From positions 1 to 11,852 of the forward strand of contig CAMLJA010000032.1 in NCBI GenBank assembly GCA_946480065.1: 11,852 bases of DNA, written 5' to 3'. The notes beneath the pieces are model-generated. The model was not told where the DNA came from, made no database searches, and worked only from the letters and a program-made list of their open reading frames with translations. A program made the position numbers and the translations under genes. Below, one piece after another: positions 1 through 3,771 of the stretch. Source of the DNA: an uncultured Thermomonas sp. GTDB lineage: Bacteria > Pseudomonadota > Gammaproteobacteria > Xanthomonadales > Xanthomonadaceae. Numbering within the stretch: position 1 is the stretch's first letter; each line of letters opens with the position of its first letter.

Positions 1-233
1 AGCGCAGGCAGTTCGAGGCGCGCTCAAAAAAAAACGCTGACGCCGCCGCGGCCGGGGAAACCGGCGGCGCCATGAGCAGCGCCGACGAGCATCCGGAAGA
101 CATCGCCGTGACCGGCGACGGCGCGAGCTTCCCGCCCACCGCGACCATGTGCCACAAGTGCTCGACCAAGGCGCTCGTCCTGATGGACGGGTGCGCGACT
201 TGCTTGAATTGTGGGTATAGCAAGTGCGGGTGA
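1..233 (+). CDS. nrdJ: Adenosylcobalamin-dependent ribonucleotide reductase, C-terminal end (5' partial)
   Basis: Frame 3 is open from the left edge to TGA at 231-233 and encodes about 76 residues. It ends in a cysteine-rich tail: CHKCSTKALVLMDGC followed by CATCLNCGYSKCG. This is the conserved zinc-finger-like and redox-cysteine end of class II (vitamin B12-dependent) ribonucleotide reductases, which reduce ribonucleotides to deoxyribonucleotides in the cytoplasm using a cobalamin radical. In these enzymes the C-terminal cysteines re-reduce the active site. The stretch before it (SKKNADAAAAGETGG) is a low-complexity linker and includes a run of nine A (26-34). The catalytic domain lies outside the window. 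The last 37 bp recur at 3735-3771, so the gene end looks like an integration target whose reading frame was preserved. The family call is firm; the gene is seen only as its tail. Confidence 0.86.
   Translation, partial: RRQFEARSKKNADAAAAGETGGAMSSADEHPEDIAVTGDGASFPPTATMCHKCSTKALVLMDGCATCLNCGYSKCG
197..233 (+). repeat. Direct repeat copy 1: 3' end of nrdJ (candidate att site)
   Basis: These 37 bp are the final codons and stop of nrdJ. They recur at 3735-3771 in the same orientation with 36 of 37 bases identical (T at 217 against C at 3755). The spacing is 3,538 bp and encloses the restriction-modification cassette. A short exact duplication ending at a gene's stop codon is the usual footprint of site-specific integration into a gene 3' end, where the incoming element restores the reading frame. 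The repeat is seen; its role as an attachment site is inferred. Confidence 0.7.
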
Positions 234-242
234 TGGACCGGG

Positions 243-294
243 CAGGGGATTGAAAATCCCCGTGTCGGGGGTTCGATCCCCTCCCCGGCCACCA
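243..294 (+). pseudogene. tRNA-Phe(GAA) 3' half, D-arm missing
   Basis: The sequence has an anticodon stem (245-249 with 257-261) and a 7-nt loop TTGAAAA with anticodon GAA at 252-254. A T-arm with loop TTCGATC (272-278), a 3' acceptor strand CCCGGCC (284-290), discriminator A291 and CCA (292-294) follow. The 5' part is abnormal: where a normal tRNA-Phe has GGCCGGG plus a D-arm, the sequence before CAGGGG is only GGACCGGG (235-242), directly after the nrdJ stop. No D-arm is present. It is therefore not a normal tRNA. Such 3' halves typically remain as the attachment site of an element that integrates into a tRNA gene; an internal deletion of about 17 nt is the alternative. Confidence 0.85.
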
Positions 295-315
295 TTTGGT
301 GGCACCGCGAAACGT

Positions 316-356
316 AAGCCCCGCAAGGCCTAGAGCCATGTGGGGCTTTTCGTTTT
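316..356 (+). terminator. Rho-independent terminator after the tRNA remnant
   Basis: The arms AAGCCCCGCA (316-325) and TGTGGGGCTT (339-348) form a 10-bp stem with one G-U pair and a 13-nt loop, followed by TTTTCGTTTT. It would end transcription coming from nrdJ or the tRNA remnant and insulate the restriction-modification cassette. Confidence 0.7.
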
Positions 357-396
357 CGGGCCATGGCAATGCGCAGTCGCGCAGCTTGGCGCGCGC

Positions 397-418
397 TGTG
401 GCCCGACTGTGGCCCGAC
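397..418. repeat. Tandem 11-bp direct repeat TGTGGCCCGAC x2
   Basis: Two exact adjacent copies lie at 397-407 and 408-418, about 100 bp beyond the tRNA remnant. Related GGCCCGA also occurs at 474-480. Short direct repeats beside an attachment site can be integrase arm-type or excisionase binding sites, but no integrase is present here, so that role is only a guess. The rest of the 200 bp between the tRNA and the methyltransferase holds no credible gene. Confidence 0.45.
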
Positions 419-494
419 GTGCGACACGGTGCGGTGCCTCCGCTGCTAACCTGACAACAGACCAGCGCCCGCTGGCCCGAAATTAGAGTCGTCC

Positions 495-1655
495 ATGCGC
501 CCGAAATCTGGTTTACCGAAACGCCGTGCCCTCCGCCGAATGCCCGAGTTCTCTCATGGTCTGCGCGAAGACCTAGCCTTCAAGGAGGCACACGCAAAGG
601 CCGCGCCTTCCATTCCTGTCATGTCTATGTTCGCCGGTTGCGGCGGCATGGATCTTGGTTTCATCGGCGGCTTTCATTACGGCCCACGGCAATATGAAGT
701 GCTGCCTTTCAAGATCACCCAAGCGGTTGATTTCGACCAGAAATCCATTGAGACCTATCGCCTAAACATTGGCGACCACGGGCTGGTGGGGGACCTAACC
801 GAGTTGCCGGCGACTGACATGCCCTCCGCTCGCTTGTTGATTGGCGGTTTTCCCTGTCAGGACTTTTCGTCGTCCGGTCCAAAGACAGGTTTTGCCGGCG
901 AGCGCGGCCAGCTTTACACCTGCATGGTCGATTACATGCGCACCCATAAGCCGGACATGGTAGTCGGGGAAAACGTCCCGCATCTCGCAACGCTGCACGG
1001 CGGCCAATACCTGAAAGCGATCATCCGTGACTGTGAGGCCGCCGGATACAACTTCGTCGTATGGGACTTGTTCGCGCCGGACTTCGGCCTCTCGCAAAGC
1101 CGGCGCCGTCTCTTTTTGGTCGGCGTCCGAAAAGACCTTGGATATCCGCCGCTACCGCCCAAGGCGACACACGCTCGCCGCCACATTCCAATTGACGAGG
1201 CGTTGGCGGACCTGGAGGACGTCACTGACGAGTCGGTGACGAACCAGAGTCAGTACTTCGTCGCGACCCGTGCGACGGCGGGCGGTGGACAAGGCGACCA
1301 CACTAACCAACGTGGAAAGCTCGCCTACTGCATCCGAGCCAATGCCAAAGCGAGAATTCAGTTTCACTATTCGCTAGACCGCCGCCTGACGGTGCGCGAG
1401 TGCGCCCGCTTGCAGTCCTTCCCGGACAACTTCGTCTTCCCTTTTTCCAGCATGACCAACATGTCGCAGATTGGGAATGCCGTACCGCCGATCCTGGCTC
1501 ATGCAGTGGCGACTGTCGTTGCCGAACACATGGCAAAATTGGACCGGGGGGAACGCAATCTTATTGATCCCAATTCGGAAGTCATCCAAGATCGTATCGT
1601 GCCAGTGAAGAAACGGCAGCGATCTTTATTTGAACCCGAAGGGGAATCAGCTTGA
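495..1655 (+). CDS. DNA (cytosine-5)-methyltransferase, type II R-M system
   Basis: This 386-residue protein transfers a methyl group from S-adenosylmethionine to C5 of cytosine in a specific DNA site, protecting host DNA from the partner nuclease. All core motifs are visible: motif I FAGCGGMDLGF (46-56), motif IV with the catalytic Cys in PCQ (120-122), motif VI ENV (159-161), motif VIII QSRRR (201-205), motif IX around RLTVRECARLQSFP (297-310) and motif X GNAVPP (327-332). The target-recognition region is about 212-295. The start at 495 lacks a clear ribosome site; ATG 540 (residue 16) is an alternative, and both leave the catalytic domain intact. A basic tail follows motif X. The next gene overlaps by 4 nt, so the two are translationally coupled. 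GC is visibly lower than in the right-hand genes, consistent with acquisition by transfer. The methylated site cannot be read from the sequence. Confidence 0.96.
   Translation: MRPKSGLPKRRALRRMPEFSHGLREDLAFKEAHAKAAPSIPVMSMFAGCGGMDLGFIGGFHYGPRQYEVLPFKITQAVDFDQKSIETYRLNIGDHGLVGDLTELPATDMPSARLLIGGFPCQDFSSSGPKTGFAGERGQLYTCMVDYMRTHKPDMVVGENVPHLATLHGGQYLKAIIRDCEAAGYNFVVWDLFAPDFGLSQSRRRLFLVGVRKDLGYPPLPPKATHARRHIPIDEALADLEDVTDESVTNQSQYFVATRATAGGGQGDHTNQRGKLAYCIRANAKARIQFHYSLDRRLTVRECARLQSFPDNFVFPFSSMTNMSQIGNAVPPILAHAVATVVAEHMAKLDRGERNLIDPNSEVIQDRIVPVKKRQRSLFEPEGESA
1638..1654 (+). promoter_or_regulatory. Ribosome site and TTG start of the endonuclease
   Basis: GAAGGGGA (1638-1645) lies 6 nt before TTG (1652-1654), which overlaps the methyltransferase TGA (1653-1655). 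The next in-frame ATG is residue 60, so TTG is the credible start. A weak start plus translational coupling would keep nuclease level tied to, and below, methylase level. Confidence 0.7.
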
Positions 1656-2464
1656 GCGCATCGAGTGACGAGGTTTATCGCTATATCCTGCTGAATCCTT
1701 TGAAGGAGTGCTCGACGTACAAGCCGGCGTTTGGTTTGCAGAGCGCCGACGGAATCGATCTAGCCCAGTTCCGTACGCTGTATGGCGCCGACCCCCTGTA
1801 CCACTGGGTAGGTCTCGATTCCGACTTGATGTACGCAGCTCACAAAGCAGCCGGAGGCATGACCTCAATTTACCGGCAACTTGGAATCGGTTGCGAACGT
1901 TTGCTTCGGCGCGTCGTACAAGACTGCTTGGCCCTCAACGAGGAACAAACGGCGTGGAGCTATCAGTACGACAAGGGCGATGGGGTGCAGGCGACGCACA
2001 CTCTGGACCTCCATATCCGGGCGACAGACGTTTCTGATCCTGACGCGCGCCAGAGATTCTTGGCTTGGGTCCGGGCCGCTGCGGAAAGGATCGGAGTTCC
2101 GGCCGATCGGGCAGCCGCACTAGAAGGTGCGGCATTCGAGATTCGACAAGGTTACAAGAGCGCCGACTCCAAGCGACAAAACGCCGATCTACGCTTCGGG
2201 CTTCGAGCGTATGCGGACGCCAGCCTTTTACCTGTAATCGCCATCGTGTCAACGCAGGCTAGCGATACCGTCTGCAGACGCTATAGCGACGCTCGTCTCC
2301 TTGTGCTCCGAGGAACGTTGCAGGGTGTAGCCAGTACCTTCGTCTTCTATCGCGACGTCATCGGCTACGACTTGGCTGCATTTTTCGAGCGTAATGCAGC
2401 GGTCATACGCGAGGACTTTGAAAAGATCATTGCGCAACTATTGACCGCTACCGACCCCAGCTAA
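1652..2464 (+). CDS. Type II restriction endonuclease (possibly ApaLI-like)
   Basis: A 270-residue protein starts at TTG, within a TTGA overlap with the methyltransferase stop. GAAGGGGA (1638-1645) is a well-placed ribosome site. Overlap with a C5-methyltransferase and a size typical of type II enzymes make a restriction endonuclease the best call. The core segment EIRQGYKSADSKRQNAD (163-179) followed by LPVIAIVSTQ (193-202) and FVFYRDVIGYDLAAFFERN (230-248) looks like a PD-(D/E)XK-type fold with acidic and Lys residues (E163, K169, D172). From memory it recalls the ApaLI-like family, whose known member cuts GTGCAC and pairs with a C5-methyltransferase; I could not verify this. Having the nuclease second and overlapped suits the need to make the methylase first. 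Its stop codon runs straight into a repeat module. Exact specificity is unknown. Confidence 0.8.
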   Translation: MSASSDEVYRYILLNPLKECSTYKPAFGLQSADGIDLAQFRTLYGADPLYHWVGLDSDLMYAAHKAAGGMTSIYRQLGIGCERLLRRVVQDCLALNEEQTAWSYQYDKGDGVQATHTLDLHIRATDVSDPDARQRFLAWVRAAAERIGVPADRAAALEGAAFEIRQGYKSADSKRQNADLRFGLRAYADASLLPVIAIVSTQASDTVCRRYSDARLLVLRGTLQGVASTFVFYRDVIGYDLAAFFERNAAVIREDFEKIIAQLLTATDPS

Positions 2465-2502
2465 AAAAAGGTGTCAGGGACAAAGAAAAAAAGGGGTCAG
2501 AG
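2463..2502. repeat. GGTGTCAGGGAC + GGGGTCAGAG repeat modules
   Basis: Directly on the endonuclease stop codon sits an A-run plus GGTGTCAGGGAC (2470-2481), then a second A-run plus GGGGTCAGAG (2493-2502), which ends exactly where the IS3-like terminal sequence begins. The same modules recur at 2730, 3588-3722, 3812-3861 and 4628-4712. They resemble the REP-type repeats mobilised by REP-associated (Y1) transposases; that link is from general knowledge and no such transposase is in the window. Confidence 0.7.
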
Positions 2503-2727
2503 TGGACTGCCCCGCATTCCACAGACAGGTAGTCAGGATACAGACCTGACGGTTTGGTAATCCCGCTCCGCCTGCATCGGCGCCCGGTAGCCCAGGGCCG
2601 AGTGCATGCGGATGCGGTTGTAGAACAATTCGACATATTCGAACACCGCCGTGCGTGCGGCGTCGCGGTTTTCGAACAGCTTGTCGCCCATCAGTTCCAG
2701 CTTGAGCGTGGCGAAGAAACTCTCGGG
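2503..2727 (-). mobile_element. IS3-family insertion sequence remnant (3' end)
   Basis: The minus strand from 2727 to the stop at 2533-2535 encodes 64 residues of an IS3-family OrfB transposase C-terminus: ESFFATLKLELM, then FYNRIRMHSALGYRAP. The first of these carries the catalytic Glu of the DDE (rve) domain. Everything upstream of this point is gone. Beyond the stop, TGGACTGCCCCGCATTCCAC (from 2503) has the look of an IS3-type terminal inverted repeat, so one true end survives while the other is a deletion junction at 2727/2728. Both edges touch a GGGGTCAGAG module. The fragment is inactive and records transposon traffic in the island. Confidence 0.85.
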
Positions 2728-2729
2728 TT

Positions 2730-2753
2730 AAAGGGGTCAGAGAACATTTCCGT
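2730..2753 (+). repeat. Half copy of the GGGGTCAGAGAACATTTCC repeat
   Basis: Here AAAGGGGTCAGAGAACATTTCCG matches the left arms of the full palindromes at 3643 and 4628. The right arm is missing; the sequence runs instead into the leader of the next gene. It abuts the truncated edge of the IS remnant, which suggests recombination between repeat copies removed the rest of the insertion sequence. Confidence 0.65.
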
Positions 2754-2769
2754 TGTCTACCTTTCGCCT

Positions 2770-2797
2770 TTGCGAAATCCGGGTTTGATTCGATTTT
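2770..2797 (+). promoter_or_regulatory. Possible promoter of the first TonB-like gene
   Basis: TTGCGA (2770-2775) and GATTTT (2792-2797) are 16 nt apart in a locally AT-rich stretch just before the ribosome site AAGGA (2802-2806). The match to sigma-70 boxes is weak and the site is tentative. Confidence 0.25.
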
Positions 2798-2813
2798 AGC
2801 CAAGGAAAGATGC

Positions 2814-3587
2814 ATGCAGCAGTCGGGGTACTTCACCGTTCGAATGGAAACCGTGTGTGCCGCGCTGTTGGGCGGGGCCGCGCTTTTGGCTGGCGTGGCG
2901 CAGGCGGCAAAGCCGGAAGCGCCCAAGCAGGCACCGATGCTGCAACTCGACTTCAAGGCGATGGTGCAAGCCGACGGCACGGTGACCGACATCCAGCCCG
3001 ATCCGGCCTTGCCGGCGGCGGTCCAGGCGTTGATCCGCCAGCGCGTGGCGACATGGCGGTACTCGCCGATGCAATGGCAGGGCAAGTCGCAACCGTCGCC
3101 GATCACGCAAACGATCAATGTGCAGGCGGTGCCGACGGAGCAAGGCGGGGTGGTCCTTCGCATCGCCGAAGTGTCCGGGCCGATGAGGAATATTGGGTCG
3201 GGAAAGCCCGCGGCGGGCATTCCGGTGCCGCCCAAATTTCCGGCTGAAGTCCAACGGCGCGGAATCAGTGCGGTCGTCGTCTATGCGGTGCTTTACGACG
3301 AAGCGGGCAAGCCCCGGCAGGTCGATCTGCTCTATCCGTCGGAACTCGATCGCGATTACAAGCGCCTGGATGAGGCGGCGCGGGACGCGATTGCCCAGTG
3401 GGTAATGCCGCATACGTTCGACGGCGCGCCGATTTCATGCCGTACCTACACGCCCATCACCTTCCACACGGACGGTGCAGGCGAACTGCCGCGCGTGCCG
3501 CCGGAAAGGATGGCGTCCTTCAACGGCTACGTTGACAGGTGCCCTACCACGTCGCTGGAAACGCCGGTCGCCGGTACGTTCCTCTGA
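2814..3587 (+). CDS. Exported TonB C-terminal-like protein, paralogue 1
   Basis: This 257-residue protein has an N-terminal hydrophobic segment (METVCAALLGGAALLAGVAQA, 11-31) that looks like a signal peptide. The start at 2814 is chosen because AAGGAAAG (2802-2809) precedes it; ATG 2844 (residue 11) would give a more standard signal peptide but lacks a ribosome site. Residues about 138-217 read like a TonB C-terminal domain: PPKFPAEVQRRGI, VYAVLYDEAGKPRQV, LDEAARDAIAQW, then DGAPISCRTYTPITF. Residues 43-106 (ADGTVTDI, VATWRYSP) repeat the same strand-helix-strand pattern, so the protein appears to hold two TonB-like halves. It lacks the proline-rich spacer of a true TonB, so energy transduction to receptors is doubtful. 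Cys209 and Cys243 are conserved in the paralogue and may form a disulfide. It lies between the IS remnant and repeat cluster B; its function is unknown. Confidence 0.8.
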   Translation: MQQSGYFTVRMETVCAALLGGAALLAGVAQAAKPEAPKQAPMLQLDFKAMVQADGTVTDIQPDPALPAAVQALIRQRVATWRYSPMQWQGKSQPSPITQTINVQAVPTEQGGVVLRIAEVSGPMRNIGSGKPAAGIPVPPKFPAEVQRRGISAVVVYAVLYDEAGKPRQVDLLYPSELDRDYKRLDEAARDAIAQWVMPHTFDGAPISCRTYTPITFHTDGAGELPRVPPERMASFNGYVDRCPTTSLETPVAGTFL

Positions 3588-3642
3588 AAAAGAAGGCGTC
3601 AGAAAAAAGGTGTCAGGGACCAAAAAGGGGTCGGACCAAAAA
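3588..3642. repeat. Cluster of degenerate repeat modules
   Basis: Right after the stop of the first TonB-like gene come GGCGTCAG (3594-3601), an A-run with GGTGTCAGGGAC (3609-3620) and AAAAAGGGGTCGGACC (3622-3637). All are variants of the module found after the endonuclease gene. No coding sequence is visible in 3588-3875; it is made of these repeats, palindrome B and the nrdJ-end copy. Confidence 0.65.
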
Positions 3643-3722
3643 GCAAAAAGGGGTCAGAGAACATTTCCGTTTGAAATGCGGTCTGAGTCCTCGCGAGGAA
3701 AATTTGTCTGACCCCTTTTCGC
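3643..3722. repeat. Palindromic repeat element B
   Basis: The left arm GCAAAAAGGGGTCAGA... (3643-3668) is inverted relative to the right arm ...TCTGACCCCTTTTCGC (3697-3722), with 22 of 26 positions matching and about 28 nt between arms. Since the outer ends are A-run/GGGG and CCCC/TTTT, the folded RNA resembles a terminator on either strand. It ends 12 bp before the nrdJ-end copy. Confidence 0.75.
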
Positions 3723-3734
3723 TTCCTTTCGCTT

Positions 3735-3771
3735 GACTTGCTTGAATTGTGGGTACAGCAAGTGCGGGTGA
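3735..3771 (+). repeat. Direct repeat copy 2: 3' end of nrdJ (candidate att site)
   Basis: These 37 bp match 197-233 with one difference and include the nrdJ stop. No nrdJ coding sequence precedes them; instead palindrome B lies 12 bp upstream. If an element integrated at nrdJ, this is the displaced original 3' end, and 3772 onward is the original downstream flank. Confidence 0.7.

Follow-up and report, generated by a model that had tools for sequence, protein, structure and literature searches.

The first 3771 bp of an 11,852 bp stretch of DNA from an uncultured Thermomonas sp. (contig CAMLJA010000032.1; hereafter the window) raise the question of how a restriction-modification (R-M) system came to lie between two copies of the 3′-end of nrdJ, a gene which we take to encode the B12-dependent ribonucleotide reductase. 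The original prediction was of an element that integrates at the 3′-end of nrdJ and rebuilds the gene, perhaps decayed or mobilised in trans.

The repeated nrdJ end and the DNA between its copies

Translation of the left end of the window revealed the C-terminal 76 codons and the stop codon of nrdJ (3 bp–233 bp, plus strand), in frame and ending in CATCLNCGYSKCG before the stop. These 76 residues had no Pfam match; the nrdJ 3′-end was matched in 103 of 119 genomes of the family (E ≤ 0.001). The last 37 bp of the gene, stop codon included (copy 1, 197 bp–233 bp), were found by a repeat search to recur on the same strand at 3735 bp–3771 bp (copy 2) with 36 of 37 nucleotides identical, and two matches at three or fewer mismatches occurred in none of 200 shuffled controls. 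Judged by eye, the translation upstream of copy 2 had no similarity to nrdJ beyond TCLNCGYSKCG. One hallmark of integrative islands, a directly repeated target on either side, is therefore present, and the 37 bp unit starts, by eye, where an inverted repeat (ACTTGC...GCAAGT) has its foot.

Between the two copies lie a type II R-M pair, a transposase remnant, a TonB-like gene and short repeats. The first gene of the pair is predicted to encode a C5-cytosine DNA methyltransferase of 386 amino acids (495 bp–1655 bp, plus strand; PF00145, 202 bits; MTase_II PDLC03378, 241 bits) and the second a type II restriction endonuclease of 270 amino acids (1652 bp–2464 bp, plus strand; REase_II PDLC03512, 248 bits), whose ORF overlaps the methyltransferase stop codon by 4 nt. 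This adjacency and gene order, methyltransferase followed by endonuclease, are those of type II R-M systems. The endonuclease had no Pfam match and 3666 homologues at E ≤ 0.001; a search of 398 sampled genomes of the order, run without a positive control, gave no match, and viral contigs contained one relative with 56% identity. The GC content of the pair (495 bp–2464 bp) is 0.575 compared to 0.734 for 4623 bp–11,852 bp.

Downstream of the pair, on the minus strand, is a C-terminal piece of an OrfB transposase (2490 bp–2726 bp; rve_2, 4e-12; rve_2/rve_3 match at 2536 bp–2727 bp), presumably of the IS3 family, with copies of 92–95% identity in Thermomonas relatives. It is followed by a gene for a TonB-like protein, A (2814 bp–3587 bp, plus strand; PF03544, 44 bits), and by dispersed repeats of the AAAAAGGGGTCAGAG...CTCTGACCCCTTTT type (3588 bp–3734 bp, plus strand; families D3, D4 and I11), which lie directly before copy 2 and have similar copies elsewhere in Thermomonas genomes. 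A second TonB-like protein, B, is encoded beyond copy 2 (3876 bp–4622 bp, plus strand; PF03544, 50 bits) and shares 41% identity with A by blastp; these paralogues, one on either side of copy 2, were absent from the original prediction. All 25 of the genomes compared from Thermomonas, the only genus compared at length, matched parts of the window. Further along, the FKBP gene (7025 bp–7380 bp) is apparently frameshifted near its start: the ATG at 7025 bp is in a different frame from the conserved part, the ORF of which opens upstream at 6970 bp.

The predicted 37 bp recurrence with one mismatch, the lack of other nrdJ sequence at copy 2, the lower GC R-M system and the repeats were all borne out, as was the transposase scar.

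A tRNA-Phe fragment behind the stop codon

A feature that had been overlooked lies 8 bp past the nrdJ stop codon. Blastn, alignment and Rfam model RF00005 identified a 53 nt 3′ fragment of tRNA-Phe, running from the anticodon stem to CCA (242 bp–294 bp, plus strand), which was identical at 52 of 53 nucleotides to the tRNA-Phe of a Thermomonas genome. The Rfam score of 24.8 bits was below the gathering score of 29 and ARAGORN found no complete tRNA in the window, as expected because the tRNA is a fragment. The next 65 bp (295 bp–359 bp, plus strand) form a terminator-like stretch similar to what follows native tRNA-Phe genes, and 242 bp–359 bp aligned by blastn to the tRNA-Phe locus of one genome (G102) at 84%.

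Attachment sites in tRNA genes typically retain a piece of this kind, running from the anticodon stem to CCA. As the R-M DNA carries such an end, it probably came through a tRNA-Phe attachment site or from one end of a tRNA-Phe island, and this points to a mixed origin of the block. The original prediction had named nrdJ rather than a tRNA as the target; the insertion site behind nrdJ is real, but its left edge here does carry a tRNA fragment. The whole block could be the remnant of a tRNA-Phe-targeting island, one end of which was placed beside nrdJ by a rearrangement with the 37 bp copy as a by-product. The tRNA-Phe end and terminator-like stretch directly behind nrdJ agree with this. We nevertheless regard it as quite unlikely, since the flank of nrdJ is variable in other relatives as well, no other nrdJ gene compared had this tRNA-Phe stretch right behind it (blastn of 234 bp–494 bp), and copy 2 is not explained by the island alone.

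In relatives a variable region begins at the nrdJ stop codon

Alignment of nrdJ loci with one another revealed a sharp edge. In all 58 pairs sharing at least 90% alignment identity, homology stopped within 13 bp behind the nrdJ stop codon. These alignments spanned at least 93 nt, 57 being between genomes and one within Dyella EPa41; the pairs are not independent and not all are closely related. The same edge was seen in 25 of the 25 pairs aligned over at least 300 nt. In related pairs the blocks of homology ended at 0 or +1 relative to the stop codon, and several resumed 1–7 kb further on, behind different cargo. Shared sequence resumed at +1974/+1562 and +4686/+2511 in two Luteimonas pairs (L008/L020 and L008/L022), at +1054/+1930 in a Stenotrophomonas pair (L007/L023) and at +1960/+7344 in G106/G080. 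Two pairs of Dyella remained alike to about +47 to +72, and one pair in which both members carry a Tn7-like end (L009/L019) to about +78. All nine pairs with GC-rich flanks on both sides of the comparison (HH pairs) diverged at the stop codon too; the sharp edge is therefore not specific to AT-rich cargo. Within Thermomonas, the distance on one contig from nrdJ to the FKBP or M28 peptidase gene ranged from tens of bases to approximately 21 kb. Differing cargo between the same flanking genes, the mark of an exchange hotspot, is thus found in relatives. The variable region of relatives has its left edge at the nrdJ stop codon, and the DNA behind it serves many of them as an insertion site.

The prediction that relatives would show nrdJ joined to the sequence after 3771 bp found no counterpart, as no nrdJ locus compared resembled 3772 bp–3880 bp. 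Cargo can move without the end of nrdJ, because G017 and G154 have a nearly identical 1.7 kb segment that starts at about the stop codon, although the identity of their nrdJ ends is only about 92%. Replacement of the tail at each insertion was supported neither by this pair nor by the nearest-relative pairs described below. At L092 and L093, from two Thermomonas genomes with nrdJ ends of about 92% identity, nrdJ is followed directly by a DUF389 gene that hardly differs between the two, the picture of a recent transfer.

Integrases and second copies of the tail

A pattern scan of the genome collection for the AT-rich tail of nrdJ returned 26 loci, the titles of which named genera, families or the order of Lysobacterales, with one exception identified as Proteobacteria only; the placement of the genera in this order is our assumption. 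Of these 26 genomes, Dyella EPa41 had three copies of the tail (three or fewer mismatches over 26 nt) and each of the other 25 had a single copy. An order-wide draw of 398 genomes contained it (three or fewer mismatches over 33 nt) in 78, as a single copy in 77. A dispersed repeat unrelated to nrdJ, one of the findings that were to overturn the original prediction, is rejected on these counts. The one genome of the 78 with a duplicated tail was Dyella EPa41, in which three nrdJ ends stand in a row (L106, 8034 bp–11,166 bp) and the extra tails carry 292–300 bp of nrdJ. No relative was found with a duplication matching the 37 bp length or with the same duplicated core. The two TonB-like proteins encoded between the Dyella EPa41 nrdJ ends are 81% identical.

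TonB-like genes between tails, in Dyella EPa41 as in the window, are what a tandem duplication of a unit of nrdJ tail plus TonB-like gene would leave. This is improbable, as the window tails are 97% identical and TonB-like proteins A and B 41%, so that joint duplication of tail and gene is unlikely; for the same reason, copy 2 probably postdates the divergence of A and B.

Reading further behind nrdJ gave no second tail. Each of the 13 Thermomonas intervals that were followed as far as the next conserved gene contained a single tail (for the far half of one, G142, the query was the window's tail only), and no second tail was present, at up to 11 of 37 mismatches, in 39 stretches of 6.7–19.9 kb behind nrdJ, a fortieth stretch without nrdJ having been excluded. 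In G091 a weak second nrdJ-like match was seen 46 kb downstream, and no tail was found in that stretch.

The search for integrases used an HMM derived from 18 integrase sequences of these genomes. No ORF of the window was among its matches, so that none was found within the block. In the first nrdJ loci searched it detected no tyrosine integrase apart from an incomplete one in G013, 17 kb away where the contig ends, and it detected none in the 39 further stretches. Looking for integrases next to nrdJ in other genomes had been proposed with the original prediction. An integrase in cis is accordingly rejected as a general mechanism. The predicted island at the nrdJ 3′-end stands as a real insertion site in many relatives; an element whose own recombinase rebuilds nrdJ is unsupported, with neither a same-length duplication in relatives nor an integrase having been found.

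An AT-rich signature at the end of nrdJ

Of 143 nrdJ ends, four had flanks that were too short and 139 were analysed. Over the last 12 codons, third-position AT was 0.385 where the flank was AT-rich (69 ends), 0.271 where it was intermediate (24) and 0.156 where it was GC-rich (46). Across the 139 ends it correlated with flank GC (Spearman -0.62; partial correlation -0.60), and codons further upstream in nrdJ mostly showed little contrast between the flank classes. A single AT-rich DNA consensus, GAYGGGTGTGCGACTTGYTTGAATTGTGGGTAT(AGC or TCG)AAGTGCGGGTGA, is common to the tails of different genera. In the window, third-position AT is 0.27 in the last 15 codons of nrdJ versus 0.07 upstream. The last 15 codons of 440 other long GC-rich ORFs, only seven of which have AT-rich flanks, averaged 0.12–0.17 and correlated more weakly with flank GC (rho -0.23). 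Among 36 pairs of nearest relatives differing in flank GC, the expected side was the more AT-rich in 22 and the less so in 13, with one tie (p = 0.088); a stricter threshold gave 16 versus 11 (p = 0.22). The correlation between tail and flank therefore partly reflects shared ancestry, because the nearest-relative comparison was not significant.

Such a signature could belong to a site of recombination. A tyrosine recombinase acting in trans might integrate circular cassettes at the nrdJ tail, making the 37 bp copies attL and attR. The near-exact repeat with an inverted repeat at its left edge, the link between tail consensus and AT-rich flanks, and the lack of such a tail in other long GC-rich ORFs speak for this. 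We consider it unlikely, given the failure to find a second tail in the Thermomonas intervals and the 39 stretches or an integrase in those stretches, the lack of an exact tail match in viral contigs and the non-significant nearest-relative test (p = 0.09). A wider form of the idea treats the final 15 codons of nrdJ as an attachment site maintained at the DNA level throughout Lysobacterales, where a factor acting in trans would insert small, recombinase-less and often defence-like cassettes at the stop codon, the window cassette having kept both copies of the site. To our minds this is unlikely. The nrdJ end would then be comparable to an integron attI lodged inside a housekeeping gene. An integron cassette array as such was rejected: k-mer counts revealed no widely shared word in the first 60–400 bases behind nrdJ, the commonest words being A-rich or terminator-like and present in few loci each.

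Cargo and transposases behind nrdJ

The cargo was surveyed as predicted genes on the nrdJ strand. A co-directional ORF of at least 100 amino acids started within 500 nt of the stop codon in 62 of 69 loci with AT-rich flanks (median offset 54 nt; 46 of the 62 within 100 nt). For GC-rich flanks the corresponding figures were 42 of 46 loci, a median offset of 160.5 nt and 17 ORFs within 100 nt. The 62 ORFs from AT-rich flanks matched 42 Pfam families at E ≤ 1e-4. Many of the 25 families listed are defence-like (AAA/OLD, TIR, GmrSD, AIPR, Mrr, KAP, PIN, M78 and DUF3800); one, FKBP, is a host gene. Top PADLOC families matched five of the 62 first ORFs compared to two of the 42 from GC-rich flanks.

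Some relatives carry Tn7-like DNA at this place. Arrays of repeats spaced at 22 bp behind a TGT, 30–34 bp past the stop codon, were found in three of 172 loci (L009, L019 and L087) and by eye in a fourth (L052). No such repeat pair occurred in 1.56 Mb of background sequence (counting both strands), the motif having been chosen after the loci were seen. In G142 the repeats behind nrdJ precede genes for a TnsA-like protein, a Mu-type transposase, TniB and TniQ; the far end of this element was not found. L087 has a Tn7-like end at 277 bp–350 bp and genes for a TnsA-like protein, a transposase, TniB and a 489 amino acid TniQ within 1916 bp–7378 bp. From these sequences, a Tn7-like lineage appears to use the nrdJ end as its attachment site. 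The window could accordingly be leftover cargo of a Tn7-like transposon whose TnsD/TniQ-type selector targets the nrdJ 3′-end, but we hold this to be highly improbable. By eye no such end was seen in the window and no array in 234 bp–360 bp, and the four G142 proteins used as queries gave no match in it. In AT-rich flanks, the many first ORFs starting within 100 nt of the stop codon leave little room for one. We know of no Tn7-like insertion that duplicates its target gene, which also counts against this explanation.

Of 140 loci, 12 (L004, L024, L034, L048, L123, L166, L213, L215, L216, L217, L223 and L242) had REP-associated Y1 transposase genes at a distance of 0.3–3 kb past nrdJ, all in the direction of nrdJ and many among GTAGCCCGGGTAAGCG-type REPs. 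Among 40 loci longer than 15 kb, all seven that bear a Y1 gene have it in the first 3 kb. Genomes had 0–7 Y1 matches each, fragments included (30 genomes, 12 of them picked for having Y1 behind nrdJ). The genes read mostly sit among their own REP-type hairpins, and as a mover of the cargo this transposase was set aside: an association was noted, and its role is unproven.

Proposed recombination anchored in the nrdJ end

We tentatively favour, with a little less than even confidence, the reading that the R-M block is one recent arrival at an exchange site which, in Lysobacterales, begins at the nrdJ stop codon, and that recombination anchored in the nrdJ end brought it in. It is favoured because the length of the duplication varies, no integrase was found and the right ends of the cargo, compared by eye, share no motif; homologous recombination as the route is suggested by the shared flanks together with the lack of a recombinase in the loci searched. 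Incoming DNA would be anchored by the conserved 3′-end of nrdJ, through homologous or short-homology recombination, and its other side would be joined illegitimately at an arbitrary point. Such a join would leave behind a second stretch of nrdJ whose length differs from case to case: 37 bp in the window and approximately 300 bp in Dyella EPa41. No recombinase dedicated to nrdJ would be needed. The R-M DNA with its tRNA-Phe 3′-end would probably derive from one end of a tRNA-Phe island.

The unequal duplications (37 bp versus 292–300 bp) and the failure to match the endonuclease among the 398 genomes count for this reading. So do the edges of homology at the stop codon with differing cargo beyond them, the single tail in 77 of 78 genomes, the 39 stretches in which neither integrase nor second tail was found, the segment shared by G017 and G154, the tRNA-Phe remnant and the probable youth of copy 2. 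Counted against it are the inverted repeat, which from its sequence could be a recombinase core, and the AT-rich consensus common to tails of different genera, for which plain homologous recombination offers no explanation. The same applies to the failure to find a donor or an empty site among the loci compared, to the divergence at the stop codon of pairs with GC-rich flanks, and to the comparisons having been made between species representatives rather than strains of one species.

Relation to known systems and significance

Core-gene-flanked defence hotspots are exchanged by recombination. The nrdJ site resembles them in that its cargo changes, is frequently defence-like and is flanked by two conserved genes, with no integrase found; it differs in its stop-codon left edge, its DNA-level signature and a gene end that is now and then duplicated. 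Integrative genomic islands use the 3′-end of a gene or tRNA. The window shares with them a gene end duplicated beyond foreign DNA and the 3′-end of a tRNA-Phe, whereas no integrase was found at the nrdJ site and the duplication recurs in one other genome only, at a different length. With Tn7-like transposons that have gene-specific selectors the site shares, in some relatives, insertion 30–34 bp past a conserved gene, but no Tn7-like end was seen in the window. The literature searched linked nrdJ neither to genomic-island integration nor to Tn7-like insertion, and linked no ribonucleotide reductase to a Tn7-like attachment site. The defence islands of S. maltophilia (PMC11680222) are taken here as an example of core-gene-flanked defence hotspots.

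Directly downstream of nrdJ, a core gene, lies a defined site whose gene content, often defence-like, differs among relatives within one bacterial order. If the AT-rich nrdJ end were truly an attachment site, it would be a site of cassette capture, and reading past nrdJ could collect unknown defence genes.
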